A stretch of DNA of 34,863 bases, taken from the NCBI GenBank assembly GCA_017617635.1, contig JAFZVW010000062.1, forward strand, positions 1 through 34,863, in the 5' to 3' direction. Position numbers and translations under genes: made by a program. The notes under the pieces are model-generated. The model was not told the DNA's origin, did not search any database, and was given only the letters and a program-made list of their open reading frames with translations. This document shows, piece after piece, positions 27,260-34,863 of the stretch (within the stretch, counting starts at the first letter, position 1; the number at the start of each line of letters is the position of its first letter). Source of the stretch: Bacteroidaceae bacterium. Its GTDB lineage: Bacteria; Bacteroidota; Bacteroidia; Bacteroidales; Bacteroidaceae.

Positions 27260-28120
27260 ATGGATATCCAGAAAATACATCAATACAAGTCGTCCTTCGA
27301 TTTGATTGTCAAGAAAGTAAAAGATGACGATGGTAATAGCATCGAAGTGTGGTTCGCACGCGAATTACAGGATGTGCTAGGATATGCCCGTTGGGAGAAT
27401 TTTGTTACTGCCGTCGGTCGAGCTATTGAATCATGTAAAACACTGGGAATCAACGTTGATGATCATTTTCGTGAGGTCACGAAAATGATAGCTTTGGCCA
27501 AGGGTGCACAGCGTGAAGTTCAGGACTTTATGCTCACCCGATATGCCTGTTACCTGATAGCTCAGAACGGCGATCCGAAGAAAGAAGAGATTGCATTTGC
27601 CCAAAGCTATTTCGCCGTGCAAACCCGTAAAGCCGAACTCATTGAAGAACGTCTGAATGAGATTGCACGTCTGAACACCCGTGAGCGACTGCGCACATCA
27701 GAGAAGCAGCTGAGCCGGAATATTTTCCAGCGAGGAGTTGACGACCGTGGTTTCGGACGCATCCGCTCCAAAGGTGACCAGGCCTTGTTTGGCGGTTTGA
27801 CAACGGAACAGATGAAGAAACGTCTCGGCATCAAGAGTGGAGCCTTGGCTGATCGTCTGCCTACTCTTACCATTGCTGCCAAGAATCTTGCTACAGAGAT
27901 GACCAACTACAACGTGGAGCAGAAGGACCTCTATGGAGAGAAGGACATTACGGCAGAGCATGTACAGAACAACCGTAGTGTTCGTGGAATGTTGGGACAA
28001 CGAGGCATCAAGCCCGAATCGCTACCACCAGCAGAAGACATCAAGAAGGTAGAGCGTCGTGTAGCAAAAGACGAGAAGGAAATGCAAAAAGAATCACAAA
28101 AACTACCTAAAGGGGAATAA
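27260..28120 (+). CDS. dinD: DinD-like DNA damage-inducible protein
   Basis: A 286-residue protein of the DinD family, SOS-induced in E. coli, where DinD acts on RecA filaments. The N-terminal BRO/KilA-like part includes VWFARELQDVLGYARWENF and FREVTKMIALAKGAQREVQD. It continues with the family segments LTRYACYLIAQNGDPKKEEI and FAQSYFAVQTRKAELIEERL. The C-terminal half has RGFGRIRSKGDQALFGGLTT and ends in a Lys/Glu-rich helix. Such genes often sit beside restriction or phage-defence genes, as here. It is bounded by two near-identical terminator hairpins and has its own predicted promoter, so it looks like a self-contained cassette. Confidence 0.9.
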   Translation: MDIQKIHQYKSSFDLIVKKVKDDDGNSIEVWFARELQDVLGYARWENFVTAVGRAIESCKTLGINVDDHFREVTKMIALAKGAQREVQDFMLTRYACYLIAQNGDPKKEEIAFAQSYFAVQTRKAELIEERLNEIARLNTRERLRTSEKQLSRNIFQRGVDDRGFGRIRSKGDQALFGGLTTEQMKKRLGIKSGALADRLPTLTIAAKNLATEMTNYNVEQKDLYGEKDITAEHVQNNRSVRGMLGQRGIKPESLPPAEDIKKVERRVAKDEKEMQKESQKLPKGE

Positions 28121-28214: not shown

Positions 28215-28222
28215 TATCTTTG
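28215..28222 (+). promoter_or_regulatory. Predicted -7 element for the helicase transcript
   Basis: TATCTTTG matches TAnnTTTG and is followed by GTATCGAATTC. Transcription would begin close to 28229, giving a leader of about 280 bases before the helicase start codon. Confidence 0.6.
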
Positions 28223-28228
28223 TATCGA

Positions 28229-28511
28229 ATTCACGCCCTGAGCGCAGGGCGGCAGTAAAATCTTAATAGAAAATAACAAAGCGTTTGCTTTTATTCGGAA
28301 AAGCTTTACGAATCTAGCACATTCAAACAAGTCCAAACCGAAAGAATAAGTTGCAAGCGTCTATGCATAGGCATGGACGTGACTTATCTGGTTTGGTGGG
28401 CTAGTGCTAGAGCCTGTAAAGCATGGATGAGAATATCGTTCATGCTTTCTTTATGCTCTATCATTGCCTACCTCCGAAGATAAGCAATACGCCTAAAGCT
28501 ATTGCATAGAT
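28229..28511 (+). ncRNA. Candidate structured leader or small RNA upstream of the helicase
   Basis: About 283 bases between a predicted promoter and the helicase start. Visible pairings: CGCCCTG 28234-28240 with CAGGGCG 28245-28251; AAAGC 28278-28282 with GCTTT 28287-28291. A nested long hairpin follows: CTAGCAC 28314-28320 with GTGCTAG 28404-28410, CCAAACC 28333-28339 with GGTTTGG 28390-28396, ATAAGT 28346-28351 with ACTTAT 28382-28387, and CGTCTATGC 28358-28366 with GCATGGACG 28371-28379 (one G-U). Then AAAGCATG 28418-28425 pairs with CATGCTTT 28441-28448, and GCAATA 28484-28489 with TATTGC 28500-28505, six bases before the start codon. I do not recognise a named RNA family. It could be a cis-regulatory leader or an independent RNA; an overlapping 36-codon frame (28373-28483) is less convincing. 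Confidence 0.6.
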
Positions 28512-31500
28512 ATGGCAGAAACACCTATCTCCTCTCATTTCTTTACGAATAGAGAAGGAAATACCTTAATGAAGGAGTTTGAAGGAATACTTTCAAACAA
28601 TCCTCAAATCAAGTACCTTGATGCCGTTGTAGGTTTTCTTCGTGCATCTGGTTATTTTTCCCTGCGACCTTTCTTGGATAATATCAACAAGGTTCGTATT
28701 CTGATTGGCATCGATGTTGACAAATACATCGCACGTGCACATCAGAAAGGAGAAATGTTCTTTGGAGCAGAAGAGGAGGTAAAAGAAGAATGTCTGCGAC
28801 TTTTGAAGAAGGACATCGAACAGTCCCATTATAACAAGAAGGTAGAAGATGGAATTTTCCAGATGCTACAGGATATGATAGACGGCAAGTTGGAGTTACG
28901 TGCACATCCATCCAAGAAGATTCATGCCAAACTTTATATCCTCTATCCTGACAATTTCAATCAGCACACCTTTGGTGCAGCAATTACCGGCAGTAGTAAT
29001 TTAAGCGGCAACGGGTTAGGTGTCGGTGATGATAAACAATATGAGTTCAATGTCAAACTCACCCAATACGACGATGTGGCCTTTGCAAAACATGAATTCG
29101 AACTGCTGTGGGAAGAAGCAAAAGGCGTACCTATCAATGCCGAGGACTACAAGGATACCATTGACGATACCTACCTGAAAGGCGATGTTACCCCTTATGA
29201 GCTTTACATCAAGATGCTGATGGAGTATTTCTCCGACCGCGTTATGCAGGTAGACCTGGACGACCCATTCGATATACCTCCCGGCTATGACAAGTTCGAA
29301 TACCAGATGGATGCCGTCATCGAGGGATATCAGAAAATGATTCGTTACGATGGTTTCTTTCTATCTGATGTAGTTGGTCTTGGCAAGACAGTCATTGCCA
29401 CTATGATAGCCAAGAAATTCTTGATAGAGAATGGGCGTGACAACACCAAGATTTTGGTTGTATATCCTCCGGCAGTTGAACAGAACTGGAAAACTACATT
29501 CCGGGACTTTGGTATTGACAAATACACACAATTTATCTCGAATGGCAGTCTCTCGAAGATTCTGGATGACGAGGACTACAACTACTGGAATGCAGAAGAG
29601 TATGATTTGGTTTTGGTCGACGAGGCGCACAAATTCCGCAATTACACCACAGGCGCATTCCAGCAGCTACAGGAAATCTGCAAGATGCCACGTCTTGAAA
29701 CAGGTAATATTCGGGGTTACAAGAAAAAGGTGATGTTGATTTCTGCAACCCCAATGAACAACTCGCCAATAGACCTGTATTACCAGATACTGATGTTCCA
29801 GGACCCCCGACATTGTACAATTGACGGAGTTCCCAATTTGACATCGTTCTTTTCGCCGCTTAATGTGGAATTCCGCAGATTAAGGAAACAGGAAAACTTT
29901 GATATCCGTAAGTTCAAGAAACTGGCAGAACGAGTGCGAGACAGAGTTATCAAACCTTTGACCGTACGTCGTACCAGAACGGACATTGAAAGCATACAAC
30001 GCTATAACAAGGATGTGAACGGATTCCCAAAGGTGGCAGAACCTATCAAAAAGGAATACGAGTTGAACGACCACCTTGCCAACCTGTTTGAAAGGGCAAT
30101 GCAAGTCCTTGACAAAGAACTGACCTATGCCCGTTATCAAGCCATTGCCTACCTGAAGCCTGAAGCATCAAATGGATTATATGACAATGCAGAGGTAATC
30201 AGCCGCAGCTTGGCTGGCATACGGAAGAACGGTTTGGTAAAACGACTGGAGAGCAGTTTCTATGCATTCAAGATATCCGTTGAAAACTTCCGTAAGGCAA
30301 ACGAGAATATGATTAAGATGTGGGAGAATGACAAGATTTTCATCGCTCCCGATATGGATATCAACCTCCTGTATGAAAAAGGCCTGACAGAAGAAGAAAT
30401 CGAGGAGAAACTGAACGAGAAAGCCGAGGTTAACCCAAAGAATGCTGTATTCAAACGCGATGATTTCAATCCTGCATATATTGATATGCTCAATAAAGAC
30501 CAGGAACTTCTCGACCAGATGTGGCTGGAATGGGAGTATATAGATGATGATGACGATTCGAAATTTGCCAAGTTTGCAGATTTGTTAAAGAACGAACTTT
30601 TCAAGAAAAGCAGGAATCCAGGTGGCAAACTTGTTGTATTCTCCGAGTCAGTAGATACAATAGAATATCTGGAGCGGCGCATCGGTCGTGATGATGTCCT
30701 TGTAATATCTGCTAAAAACCGTGGTTCTCTATTCAAGACAATTCGCGAAAACTTTGATGCAAAATACGACAAGGAGAAAAAGAATGACTACAATATCATT
30801 CTTACCAGCGACGTCTTGGCAGAGGGCGTCAATCTGCATCGGTCAAACATAATCATCAACTACGATACACCCTGGAATGCAACACGTCTGATGCAACGCA
30901 TCGGGCGCGTAAATCGTATAGGTTCACAATCGGATACAATTTATAACTATGTGTTCTACCCATCCCGGCAGGGTAACAAGGAAATCAAGTTGAACCAGAT
31001 TGCCCTGAGTAAGATACAGACTTTCCACACAACCTTTGGCGAAGATAATCAGATATATTCTACCGATGAGATTATCGACAGGGATTTGGATAAATTATTC
31101 AAGGAAGGCATCAAGCGTGAACAGGAAGACCGCAATCTGGAACTTCCCTTCTTCGAGGAACTCCGCAATCTTTATCAGCAGAACCGCAAGGAGTACAAAC
31201 GCATAGAGAAATTATCTCTCCGCAGCCGTACCGGTCGTGAATCTCGTGAGATAGAAGGAGTTTCACTTTCGGGCGACTCGTTGGTATTCCTTAAAACCAA
31301 TTTCCGCAAACTCTTCTATCTGGCCAATGACAATAAGATAGACGAGCTGTCAGTTTTGGATGCTTTCAAATACTTCAAGGCAGAACCAGACGAGAAACCT
31401 GTTCCACGTCTGGAAAATCATCACGAACATGTAGAAAAAGCACTAAACGAATTCAATAGGATTAAGGAACAGGAACTGCACGAGGAGGAATCCAATCAAA

Positions 31501-31841
31501 ACCAGCGCAGCAACCTGGGTGCACAGGTAACAACTGCAATCAGCCTGCTTAACAGCATATTGTCTAAGATTATTGATGATGACGAAACGCGTCAGAAAAT
31601 TATCCAGCTCAAAAAGTTGGTTGAACGCGGAACCATAACTCTGATAGCAAAACGTCTGCAACGCATTCAGAAAGACTTGCAACGTCAGGGAGCCAGCAGG
31701 GCCAAACTAACATTTGATGATGCCAAGAAGCAAGTCCTGGAAATGGCCAACAAATACAACACTTATTATCGGGAGAGTCAGCGTGCAGAGGAAGAAACGG
31801 CTGCTATTATCATTCTCTCGGAATCGTTCAGTAAATCGTAA
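28512..31841 (+). CDS. PLD-nuclease and SNF2-type helicase fusion, defence-associated
   Basis: A 1109-residue protein expected to translocate on DNA and possibly cut it. The N-terminal PLD-like domain at about 10-190 has HAKLYIL (His138, Lys140) and ITGSSNLSGNG (Asn163). The SNF2-like helicase has GLGKT (Gly289-Thr293), VDEAH (Asp370-His373), SATPMNNSP, then a long helical insert. The second helicase half has TSDVLAEGVNLHRSN and QRIGRVNRIGS (from Gln795). A charged helical tail of about 170 residues follows. This architecture is found in helicases paired with adenine methyltransferases in restriction-like and DISARM/BREX-related defence loci. The methyltransferase gene starts 28 bases downstream; the structured stretch upstream may control it. 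The stop codon lies within a 7-base repeat. Confidence 0.88.
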   Translation: MAETPISSHFFTNREGNTLMKEFEGILSNNPQIKYLDAVVGFLRASGYFSLRPFLDNINKVRILIGIDVDKYIARAHQKGEMFFGAEEEVKEECLRLLKKDIEQSHYNKKVEDGIFQMLQDMIDGKLELRAHPSKKIHAKLYILYPDNFNQHTFGAAITGSSNLSGNGLGVGDDKQYEFNVKLTQYDDVAFAKHEFELLWEEAKGVPINAEDYKDTIDDTYLKGDVTPYELYIKMLMEYFSDRVMQVDLDDPFDIPPGYDKFEYQMDAVIEGYQKMIRYDGFFLSDVVGLGKTVIATMIAKKFLIENGRDNTKILVVYPPAVEQNWKTTFRDFGIDKYTQFISNGSLSKILDDEDYNYWNAEEYDLVLVDEAHKFRNYTTGAFQQLQEICKMPRLETGNIRGYKKKVMLISATPMNNSPIDLYYQILMFQDPRHCTIDGVPNLTSFFSPLNVEFRRLRKQENFDIRKFKKLAERVRDRVIKPLTVRRTRTDIESIQRYNKDVNGFPKVAEPIKKEYELNDHLANLFERAMQVLDKELTYARYQAIAYLKPEASNGLYDNAEVISRSLAGIRKNGLVKRLESSFYAFKISVENFRKANENMIKMWENDKIFIAPDMDINLLYEKGLTEEEIEEKLNEKAEVNPKNAVFKRDDFNPAYIDMLNKDQELLDQMWLEWEYIDDDDDSKFAKFADLLKNELFKKSRNPGGKLVVFSESVDTIEYLERRIGRDDVLVISAKNRGSLFKTIRENFDAKYDKEKKNDYNIILTSDVLAEGVNLHRSNIIINYDTPWNATRLMQRIGRVNRIGSQSDTIYNYVFYPSRQGNKEIKLNQIALSKIQTFHTTFGEDNQIYSTDEIIDRDLDKLFKEGIKREQEDRNLELPFFEELRNLYQQNRKEYKRIEKLSLRSRTGRESREIEGVSLSGDSLVFLKTNFRKLFYLANDNKIDELSVLDAFKYFKAEPDEKPVPRLENHHEHVEKALNEFNRIKEQELHEEESNQNQRSNLGAQVTTAISLLNSILSKIIDDDETRQKIIQLKKLVERGTITLIAKRLQRIQKDLQRQGASRAKLTFDDAKKQVLEMANKYNTYYRESQRAEEETAAIIILSESFSKS

Positions 31842-31869: not shown

Positions 31870-34863
31870 ATGATTAACTATAAAGAAGTCATCGAATCTC
31901 GCTATAATCGTCAGAACTGGCAGACACTCCTGCATGATATATTCGGCAGTAAGATAAAGTTTTGGAGCACTCCATCAACTGTTTACACCAGCAGCCAGTT
32001 TGCAAAACAGGCTCTTTGGCTTGGTACAATTACATTAAGTGACGAGCAAACCATTTCCGTCTACGAAGTGGAACTATCCGACAGCGTGGATATAGAACGC
32101 AATCGACGCGGCATCCGTGACATGTTGTTGACAGATTGGCGCAACAACGGCAATGCAGGAGCTTTTATGTTCTGCTATCGCAAGAACGAAAGTGTACTTC
32201 GTTTTTCGTATGTCAGCGAGTCATGGACTTTTGCAGAAGACGGAAGCTATCAGAAGGAATCTACCGACACCAAACGCTTTACCTATCTACTGGGCGAAGG
32301 ACATCGAAGCCGCACGGCTCAGCAGCAATTCGAGAAACTGAAAACAAGTGCCCTGTCCCTAAAAGACCTGACGAAAGCATTCTCGGTAGATGCCGTCAGC
32401 GACATGTTCTTTAACGACTACAAGAAAATATATGCAGATATAATCTTCTACATCACGGGCAAGCGAATGGTGAAGAAGGGGAATAAGTGGGAAGAAGTAA
32501 AAGAGGGCAGAGCATGCAGAAAGATACTGGATGAATTCACCGTTTTCCCCGACCCTGAGAAGGCTGTACGTGATTACGTTAAGAAACTCATGGGACGACT
32601 GGTATTCCTACAGTTCCTGCAGAAGAAAGGTTGGATGGGAGTACCTCTCAATAAAGAATGGGGTGAAGGCGACAAGGAATTCGTACAAAACCTCTTTGCC
32701 AAAACCGAAGACAAGGACCACTTCATAGACAATGTCCTTGAAAAGATATTCAATGACCTTAACACAGAACGCGAAGACGACAAGTCAAAGAATTATCGTT
32801 TCAAGATACCATATCTAAACGGTGGATTATTTGAACGTGACGAAACTGACAAGACCAATTTCCCTCTGCCTGCAAAGTATATGCAGGACATGCTCGACTT
32901 CTTTGCATCCTATAACTTCACTATCGACGAGAACGATCCTGATGATGCAGAAGTAGGGGTTGACCCAGAGATGCTTGGCCGTATCTTCGAGAACTTGTTG
33001 GAGGACAACAAAGACAAGGGTGCTTTCTATACGCCCAAGGAAATCGTAAGCTATATGTGTCGAGAGTCTTTGATTGCCTATCTGCAGACAGATATCGAGA
33101 AAGAGGAGCAGAAAGAAGCTATTCGCCAATTTGTAACAACACACCAATTCGTACCGCATCTGCCGAGCGACACACTTGATATGTTGAAGAACGTCAAGAT
33201 CTGCGACCCTGCTATTGGTTCAGGTGCATTTCCAATGGGTTTGTTAAAGGAACTCTATCTATGTCGTACAGCACTTGAGGGCATTGACCAAAACAAGGCT
33301 GCAGAAATCAAGAAACATATTATCCAGCAGAATATCTATGGTGTGGACATAGAAAAAGGTGCCGTAGATATTGCCCGCCTCCGCTTCTGGCTCTCGCTGA
33401 TTGTTGATGAAGAAACTCCGCAAGCTCTGCCAAACCTTGACTTTAAGATTATGCAGGGCAATTCGCTGTTGGAGCAGTACAAGGGTGCAGATCTGTCCAC
33501 TATGACAGAAAAGACAGAGATGGACAGTTTGACTTTCTTTGATGGTATGATAGATGTGTATCGCAAAGACCTTCGCAAAATGCTTGCGGAATACTACAAC
33601 TGTACCGACCACAAAGAAAAGAAATCTCTTCGTGCACGTATTGTAGATAATGTAAAGCAACAACTTCGCGAGCAAAGCATCAACGTTGACTTTGGCGACT
33701 TCGACCTCTCTGGAAACAACCAGTTCTTCCTTTGGCACACTTGGTTCTATGATGTATTCTCGCAAGGAGGATTTGATATTGTGATAGGGAATCCACCGTA
33801 TGGAGAACTAAGAGATTTGGATGAAGAAGAACAACAAACCACTAGACTTTCGAAGTACTATAAGTATGCAAAGGGTGGGCGCATAAATCTTTTTCAGTTC
33901 TTTTATCCTCTCGCGTTAGATATAACTCGTAATGGTGCCATTTCTTCTTTTATTGTACAGAATTCACTAATGGCCGAAGAAACTACAGCCGCAAATAGAG
34001 ACCTAATATTAAATCGAGCGTGCATAAGACACATGGATTCATTCCCTGAAAGGTATAATGTAAATAAGAGGGTGTTCAAAGATGTAACAATGAGTGTTTG
34101 TATTTGTATTGTTACAAAGCAAATTATAGATGATTATACCTTTACAATAGACGTGTGGAACGACAAAGAAATGTGTGATGGTAAGCATCTTGCTATTAGA
34201 AAGAGTGAAATTGTATCACTTTACCCTGATTCATTCATTTTGCCATCATGTACTCAAGAATCGTTATCAATTCTGATTAAGATTAGGAACAAGGCTAACT
34301 ATCATATTTCTGCTCATGCAGGCGAAATAGATATGACGAAGTTCAGACCTTTATTCACTCAAAATGTGAGTGGTATAAGAATTATAACTGGTTCAAATAT
34401 TGGCTCATATTTTATTGCTGAAGACGGATCACTTGGAAAAAACATCTTAGCTCCTGTTAAAATATTAGATAGTCTACAGAGATTAGAAACAATAAAAAAG
34501 AATAGAATTGTACTGCAAAGAATAACAGGAGTTAATGCAAAAAAACGATTTATAGGTGGAATGTTGAGTAGTTCGTTGTTGTGTGCGAATTCTACCAACT
34601 ATATAAGCAGTTTAGACAATCAAATAAATCTCTACTATTTATTGGGAGTGTTGAATTCACGACTAATGACCTATTTCGACAAACTAACAAATACAAATGC
34701 TAATATAACAGCAAAGGTCTTATTCAATTTGCCGATAGTTCGTGACAAAGAAGACCATCCTATAATTGATATGGTTAAAAATATTCTTGAAGTGAAGCAT
34801 ATCAATCCCTCTGCTGACACCTCCTCAATAGAATCTGAAATCGACCAACTTGTTTATCAACTC
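31870..34863 (+). CDS. Eco57I/PglX-like N6-adenine DNA methyltransferase (3' end outside window)
   Basis: Large class I adenine methyltransferase expected to modify host DNA for the defence module. The frame is open for 998 codons from ATG 31870 (MINYKEVIESRYNRQNWQTL) to the right edge with no stop. The N-terminal domain runs to about 440, with RIFENLLEDNKDKGAFYTP just before the catalytic part. The SAM-binding motif I is DPAIGSGAFPMG from Asp446 and the catalytic motif IV NPPY is Asn641-Tyr644. After motif IV comes a target-recognition-like region (RIVLQRITG, LYYLLGVLNSRLMTYF). This C-terminal third is visibly richer in A and T than the rest. No clear nuclease motif was recognised in the part seen, so it may act with the upstream helicase rather than as a type IIG enzyme. 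Confidence 0.9.
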   Translation, partial: MINYKEVIESRYNRQNWQTLLHDIFGSKIKFWSTPSTVYTSSQFAKQALWLGTITLSDEQTISVYEVELSDSVDIERNRRGIRDMLLTDWRNNGNAGAFMFCYRKNESVLRFSYVSESWTFAEDGSYQKESTDTKRFTYLLGEGHRSRTAQQQFEKLKTSALSLKDLTKAFSVDAVSDMFFNDYKKIYADIIFYITGKRMVKKGNKWEEVKEGRACRKILDEFTVFPDPEKAVRDYVKKLMGRLVFLQFLQKKGWMGVPLNKEWGEGDKEFVQNLFAKTEDKDHFIDNVLEKIFNDLNTEREDDKSKNYRFKIPYLNGGLFERDETDKTNFPLPAKYMQDMLDFFASYNFTIDENDPDDAEVGVDPEMLGRIFENLLEDNKDKGAFYTPKEIVSYMCRESLIAYLQTDIEKEEQKEAIRQFVTTHQFVPHLPSDTLDMLKNVKICDPAIGSGAFPMGLLKELYLCRTALEGIDQNKAAEIKKHIIQQNIYGVDIEKGAVDIARLRFWLSLIVDEETPQALPNLDFKIMQGNSLLEQYKGADLSTMTEKTEMDSLTFFDGMIDVYRKDLRKMLAEYYNCTDHKEKKSLRARIVDNVKQQLREQSINVDFGDFDLSGNNQFFLWHTWFYDVFSQGGFDIVIGNPPYGELRDLDEEEQQTTRLSKYYKYAKGGRINLFQFFYPLALDITRNGAISSFIVQNSLMAEETTAANRDLILNRACIRHMDSFPERYNVNKRVFKDVTMSVCICIVTKQIIDDYTFTIDVWNDKEMCDGKHLAIRKSEIVSLYPDSFILPSCTQESLSILIKIRNKANYHISAHAGEIDMTKFRPLFTQNVSGIRIITGSNIGSYFIAEDGSLGKNILAPVKILDSLQRLETIKKNRIVLQRITGVNAKKRFIGGMLSSSLLCANSTNYISSLDNQINLYYLLGVLNSRLMTYFDKLTNTNANITAKVLFNLPIVRDKEDHPIIDMVKNILEVKHINPSADTSSIESEIDQLVYQL

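Follow-up and report, generated by a model that had tools for sequence, protein, structure and literature searches.

The window analysed here, a stretch of 34,863 nt from a Bacteroidaceae bacterium, contains a leader of about 280 bases (28229–28511), which forms the 5′ UTR of a defence-gene message and precedes the helicase ATG at 28512. Judging from sequence comparison and computed folds, we consider it probable, at roughly two chances in three, that this leader is a cis-acting riboswitch-like attenuator, to which a translational gate would be added in the branch preceding R-M genes. A sequence-only reading of the same stretch had suggested a leader controlling the downstream gene, and it looks so, given a structured RNA in the 5′ UTR. 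The promoter, the first hairpin, and the genes of the operon are as follows:

28215–28222, + strand: TAnnTTTG promoter box TATCTTTG (sequence; position conserved in relatives)
28234–28240/28245–28251, + strand: 5′ hairpin P0 (minimum-energy fold; comparable hairpins noticed by eye in numerous leaders of set A)
28512–31841, + strand: PLD (HKD) and SNF2 helicase gene (Pfam; PADLOC C3a139, E 3.2e-37)
31870–34863, + strand: type IIG-like methyltransferase gene, truncated where the contig ends (PADLOC REase_MTase_IIG, E 9.9e-74)

Assignment of the window operon to DISARM was rejected: the helicase scores 146.5 bits with DrmD, against an NCBIfam cut-off of 610. Upstream, the leader adjoins a DinD (DNA damage-inducible protein D) gene (27260–28120), which is above the NCBIfam cut-off and is PADLOC candidate PDC-S13.

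Leader fold and distribution of relatives

The minimum-energy fold of the + strand of 28229–28511 has −104.5 kcal/mol; dinucleotide shuffles average −68.2 (sd 4.75; z −7.64), and none of the 200 was as stable; for the − strand, the same test gave z −3.37. Together with the covariation described below, this bears out the proposal of a structured RNA. All parts of a four-tier nested repeat noted earlier at 28314–28410 are present: 28314–28320/28404–28410 (7 pairs), 28333–28339/28390–28396 (7), 28346–28351/28382–28387 (6, with a seventh pair, U-G 28352/28381), and 28358–28366/28371–28379 (9, one U-G). Its placement between the TAnnTTTG promoter (28215–28222) and the helicase start (28512) was also correct. 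The whole-leader minimum-energy fold contains the three inner tiers and lacks the outer one; in terms of the helices listed below, the full-length minimum-energy fold of the window has P1, P4–P6, and P7- and P8-kind pairs, without P2 and P3.

A search with Rfam release 15 (4227 models) gave no match to the window at the gathering score, in line with the earlier failure to find a named RNA family. At E up to 1, searches of 5 and 13 further loci gave a tRNA and chance-level matches, none of them at the leader element. A search of open-access literature, including PMC9723704, PMC8040213, PMC2864571, and PMC7366714, found no named RNA recognisable as this leader; PMC8040213 may include it among its candidates, or PMC9723704 among its structured 5′ regions. 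The Bacteroidetes motifs Bacteroidales-1, Bacteroides-1, Flavo-1, and Bacteroid-trp, named in PMC2864571, are likewise structured RNAs of the same phylum. Those of them with Rfam entries were in the searched library, which left the window unmatched at the gathering score and the leader element unmatched in the 5 and 13 loci at E up to 1.

A blastn search with the 283-base leader revealed copies in 12 of 61 genomes, its own genome counted. The core motif AATAARTYGCAARYGYCTRTGC occurs in 77 stretches of GTDB genomes, all titled Bacteroidia or a subgroup; the carriers are mostly Prevotella, Prevotellaceae, or Bacteroidaceae, and are of ruminant origin where the source is given. No exact match of this motif was found in viral contigs, and phage and plasmid records did not match the leader at blastn E 1e-5. 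A covariance model, R1, was built on helices P2–P6. With the own genome counted each time, it matches in 181 of 399 genomes (22 of 30 genera) of the family, in 58 of 247 genomes (50 of 174 genera) of an order sample, and in 9 of 247 genomes of a phylum sample. The own genome has three copies: one in the window, one (C41) before a cytosine methyltransferase gene, and one (C38) before a gene resembling, by eye, those of loci L024 and L141. One copy (L073) belongs to Prevotella sp. ne3005, whose record bears no MAG or uncultured label.

Three sets of relatives were used. Set A comprises 75 non-identical close copies and three divergent ones, 77 of which were used in alignments; sets B (60 matches) and C (41 matches in 40 loci) were picked non-randomly among the matches listed for R1. 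A 100-sequence alignment was a selection from all three. Among members with 260 nt of upstream sequence, a TAnnTTTG match lies 60–140 nt 5′ of helix P2 in 68/74 (A), 51/59 (B), and 20/38 (C), and such matches are 4.7 to 7.5 times commoner in the flanks than in mononucleotide-shuffled flanks. By eye, an ACATATT-like stretch recurs in many members about 15–20 nt 5′ of AGCGTTTGCT, right before the P1 5′ strand.

Several features of individual copies can be noted. Multiple copies per genome were seen in loci L200–L212 (8, 9, and 4 matches in genomes G052, G597, and G494, respectively), some of them near contig ends. In L200, L205, and L207, small PIN-like and HEPN-like genes (N-termini by eye) end 57–87 nt 5′ of the copy, as in gene cassettes. 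The copies of G597 differ almost wholly in the sequence of P2 and P4, and their P5 and P6 are hardly altered. In L022 and L070, from two contigs of Prevotellaceae UBA4332, identity in the outer parts of the leader is 98% and 87%, but both strands of P3 and of P4 are exchanged together (71% and 64% identical, respectively), as if recombination had swapped the inner domain. Close copies in L044, L085, L011/L092, and L017/L074 lack the P1 3′ strand or end after the core, and some precede non-R-M genes; these may be degenerate or re-used leaders.

Covariation of the core domain and a putative kissing loop

The core domain is composed of the following elements (percentages are paired cells; those of P2, P4, P5, and P6 refer to the 100 members):

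28303–28309/28416–28422, + strand: helix P2, closing the putative four-way junction (98.2%; 7/7 pairs covary under the tree-aware null)
28310–28312/28322–28324, + strand: hairpin K1, with one P3 strand in its loop (covarying pair 28310/28324; 93.5%)
28313–28320/28404–28411, + strand: P3, read as a kissing loop (99.4%; 6/7 model pairs and the added 28313/28411 covary)
28333–28339/28390–28396, + strand: helix P4 (97.3%; 7/7 pairs covary)
28346–28352/28381–28387, + strand: helix P5 (95.6%; conservation too high for significant covariation)
28358–28366/28371–28379, + strand: tip hairpin P6 (97.0%; no single pair significant)
28399–28401/28412–28414, + strand: hairpin K2, with the other P3 strand in its loop (covarying pair 28401/28412; 95.0%)

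On 77 close relatives, 91.8% of the P2–P6 cells are paired, versus 27–46% in slid controls. The level is 97.5% both in the 60 weaker matches, where 32 of the 37 pairs are changed on both sides, and in the 100 mixed sequences, where 33 are; the latter contain 1011 doubly changed cells versus 273 in shuffles, all these counts coming from related members and hence not being independent observations. Since the 60- and 100-sequence alignments had been fitted to the covariance model, a tree-aware null, in which the substitutions of each column are re-placed on the tree, was run as well. With the 100 sequences, 24 of 8646 column pairs have E ≤ 0.05, and 20 of these belong to the 37 proposed pairs: 7/7 in P2, 6/7 in P3, 7/7 in P4, and none in P5 or P6, whose columns hardly vary. 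The check for compensatory changes that the sequence-only reading had recommended has come out in its favour, with strong covariation. An earlier tree-aware test on 70 close relatives, which left out L017, L011, L044, L085, and L016 (without 3′ parts) as well as the divergent L012, L015, and L018, gave four pairs at E ≤ 0.05, three of them at least 80% paired.

Two of the four further significant pairs extend P3 and P4, and the two others (28310/28324 and 28401/28412) are new. They are flanked by near-invariant AA/UU and GG/CC, which gives the two 3-pair stems K1 and K2. As each P3 strand sits in the loop of a 3-pair stem, the best reading of P3 is a kissing loop of 8 pairs, with P2 closing a four-way junction of P2, K1, P4, and K2. 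The description of the nested repeat is corrected in one respect: its outermost tier, P3, is probably a loop–loop contact of two small hairpins and not a plain stacked tier. The purine riboswitch has two hairpins with mutually pairing loops beside a helix junction. The leader appears to resemble it in the putative loop–loop pairing of two hairpins beside a junction. It differs in that the junction is four-way, the hairpin stems have 3 pairs each, and the loops make a contact of 8 pairs whose sequence varies.

In the covariation alignment, G-U cells (272) are far above A-C cells (21); therefore, it is the + strand that acts as RNA. This asymmetry bears on the idea that the element is a mobile repeat or a recombination site, folded as DNA. 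Such an element could account for multiple copies per genome, some near contig ends, and for outer and inner leader parts that seem to recombine; nevertheless, the excess of G-U and the constant order of promoter, element, and start codon make it very improbable.

A leader-peptide attenuator, in which ribosomes on a short leader ORF set the switch, is more improbable still. An ATG at 28423 does open a 28-codon frame with a stop at 28509, beside the helicase ATG; however, across the 63 members of set A that have the motif, the length of this frame varies from 11 to at least 50 letters (stop counted), and 25 compared readings agree only in the first few residues, which overlap conserved RNA. This candidate was rejected, as no conserved short ORF was found in set A. 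The stretch also does not look protein-coding, the pattern named beforehand as speaking against an RNA, since its single candidate upstream ORF differs between relatives in both frame and length.

Tail, closing helix, and the proposed switch

Beyond the core, the following elements were recognised:

28438–28452, + strand: tail GTTCATGC, then a U-rich run at 28446–28452 (complementary to the P6 3′ strand, 28371–28378)
28421–28445, + strand: local hairpin before the U-rich run, with bases common to P2 (belongs to the most stable fold at the U run, −80.3 kcal/mol)
28280–28299, + strand: 5′ strand of closing helix P1 (cognate beats swapped, set B)
28473–28492, + strand: 3′ strand of P1 (minimum-energy fold; cognate versus swapped energies)
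28395–28401/28466–28472, + strand: P8, alternative to the K2/P2 region (minimum-energy fold; cognate beats swapped, sets A and B)
28408–28413/28455–28460, + strand: P7-type pairs, alternative to the K2/P2 region (minimum-energy fold; cognate beats swapped, sets A and B)
28484–28489/28500–28505, + strand: start-site hairpin, with bases common to P1 (sequence; start-region pairing supported in set B with strong P1)

Directly 3′ of P2, the tail repeats the 5′ strand of P5–P6. The P6 3′ strand has an 8-of-8 complement in the tail of 74/77 (A), 41/60 (B), and 39/41 (C) members, versus 12–15% of shuffled tails, and at least 5 T are present in the 8 nt after the tail in 75/77, 51/60, and 38/41, also in members without P1. 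When strands were swapped among related members, the cognate tail pairing was more stable than the swapped one in set B (−18.8 versus −14.7 kcal/mol; sd of swapped means 0.35) and set C (−19.1 versus −16.1; 0.31); the small margin in set A (−16.7 versus −16.2; 0.12), to be expected among members so alike, is not evidence for the pairing. As the tail copies the P6 5′ strand and runs into a U-rich stretch, the tip hairpin and a terminator-like hairpin can be mutually exclusive.

The window itself behaves differently. Folded to the U run, it has −77.6 kcal/mol with P2–P6 enforced versus −80.3 at best, so that the local hairpin at 28421–28445 competes with P2 at near-equal energy, and the tail–P6 pairing lies 17 kcal/mol above the most stable fold. 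An expression platform is found as pairing potential in the family, and in the window it is the local hairpin against P2 instead.

Members located before R-M genes extend beyond the U run. There, P7 and P8 re-pair the P2/K2 region, and P1 links the 5′ end with the end of the leader, its 3′ strand also forming the start-codon hairpin. In set B, where strands were likewise swapped among related members, cognate pairing is favoured for P1 (−18.2 versus −14.1 kcal/mol; sd 0.22), P7 (−15.7 versus −10.2; 0.27), and P8 (−10.4 versus −7.7; 0.25). The start hairpin was compared in the 43 set-B members whose P1 is strong, and the cognate strands again paired better (−10.2 versus −7.3; 0.36). The margins in set A are 0.5 for P1, 1.2 for P7, 3.0 for P8, and 0.8 for the start hairpin, and those in set C about 1.1–1.2 for P1, P7, and P8. 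Where P1 is weak (47 members of B and C), the cognate start hairpin did not beat swapped strands (−5.1 versus −4.8; 0.23). The start region of the window, folded alone, prefers pairs other than the start-site hairpin.

We propose that the leader, as the 5′ part of the helicase–methyltransferase operon message, would act in cis as an RNA switch. Since the tail copies the P5–P6 5′ strand, the P5–P6 3′ strand can pair either within the domain or with the tail. In the first state, RNA polymerase would read on; in the second, an intrinsic terminator would form. In the branch of the window, the local hairpin competing with P2 may serve as the intrinsic terminator, with a transcript end near 28452. 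After read-through, P1 would free the start codon in the R-M branch, so that transcription and translation would both be gated. The state would be chosen by a bound ligand or factor; the most likely trigger seems to be the binding of a metabolite or protein, by which the four-way junction would be stabilised.

Several observations count against an attenuator: the unfavourable tail–P6 pairing, the interrupted U run (TTTCTTT), and the lone fold without P2 and P3, all in the window, and the genes behind distant members, which have no one evident common function. The interrupted run would suit a leader that affects only translation or RNA stability, perhaps through protein binding, with a non-terminating U-rich run, and so would the better support for translational elements in the R-M branch. 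We regard this as distinctly unlikely given the U-rich run that follows the tail in most members of the three sets, even where P1 is missing.

Like attenuating riboswitches, the leader has a conserved folded 5′-UTR domain, here with covariation, and strands common to a terminator-like hairpin and, in one branch, to a start-codon hairpin. Unlike them, it is known from sequence alone, its P3 and P4 drift in sequence while staying paired, and the genes it precedes encode R-M systems and predicted secreted proteins instead of one pathway.

Genes behind the leader and possible significance

The first same-strand ORF was found within 600 nt in 74/78 (A), 59/60 (B), and 38/41 (C) members, starting 40–130 nt beyond the model end in 69/74, 46/59, and 29/38. 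This proximity is pertinent to the alternative of an independent small RNA, some 220 nt long, that would have its own promoter, end at the U run, and act in trans, its place before genes being secondary. The promoter box, the terminator-like end in many members, and the multiple copies per genome agree with such an RNA, whereas the regular spacing to an ORF and, in the R-M branch, covarying pairs that continue through the start codon make it unlikely. A guide or antitoxin-like RNA, suggested earlier, found no support; reverse transcriptases and RNA-guided effectors, the neighbours expected of a retron or guide RNA, are absent among the 25 families listed of 40 (A), 42 (B), and 30 (C) for the first downstream ORFs. 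Phage sensing, also suggested, gained no support and met no contrary evidence.

In set A, EcoRI-type methylases account for 55/74 first ORFs (PADLOC MTase_II, 55/74) and PLD domains for 4/74. The commonest families among the 59 of set B are PLD (10), SNF2 (7), and EcoRI-type, N6-methylase, and ResIII (5 each), and set C is mixed, with no family in more than 2 of 38. Genes that follow this leader architecture encode EcoRI-type, type I, type IIG, D12, and C-5 methyltransferases and PLD helicases. Since many of the members examined precede R-M genes, the opinion that long leaders are abnormal before restriction genes does not hold in this group. The leader is not restricted to defence genes: many genes behind distant members encode predicted secreted proteins.

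In sets B and C, R-M-like genes follow 38/50 members with strong P1 versus 5/47 with weak P1 (Fisher p 4e-11, on related loci, with a cut of −16 kcal/mol chosen after the values had been seen, and with gene classes assigned by motif patterns that miss some methyltransferases, as L166 and L174 compared with L141, similar by eye). Conversely, signal-peptide-like proteins follow 27/47 members with weak P1 and 6/50 with strong P1 under the same cut and classes. For this reason, the core switch seems to be of general use, with the P1 extension as a mark of the R-M branch.

R-M genes are tightly controlled, and the known controls are mostly proteins (C proteins, methylase autorepression). Restriction genes are regulated in both cases; in the present one, a single RNA fold stands before unrelated R-M types. 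More tentatively, and with less confidence than in the attenuator itself, this may be a phylum-scale RNA switch class with a fast-drifting kissing loop, in which one cellular signal, possibly infection or the cell envelope, would gate a regulon of unrelated R-M systems and surface proteins, the restriction genes having acquired an additional switch at the level of translation.

With no Rfam match, the leader stands for an orphan class of RNA that occurs in many Bacteroidales. As one RNA architecture stands before many R-M types, RNA control of defence operons becomes directly testable, with clear pairs to mutate. All this bears on how restriction systems turn on safely after cell entry and on whether they respond to infection.
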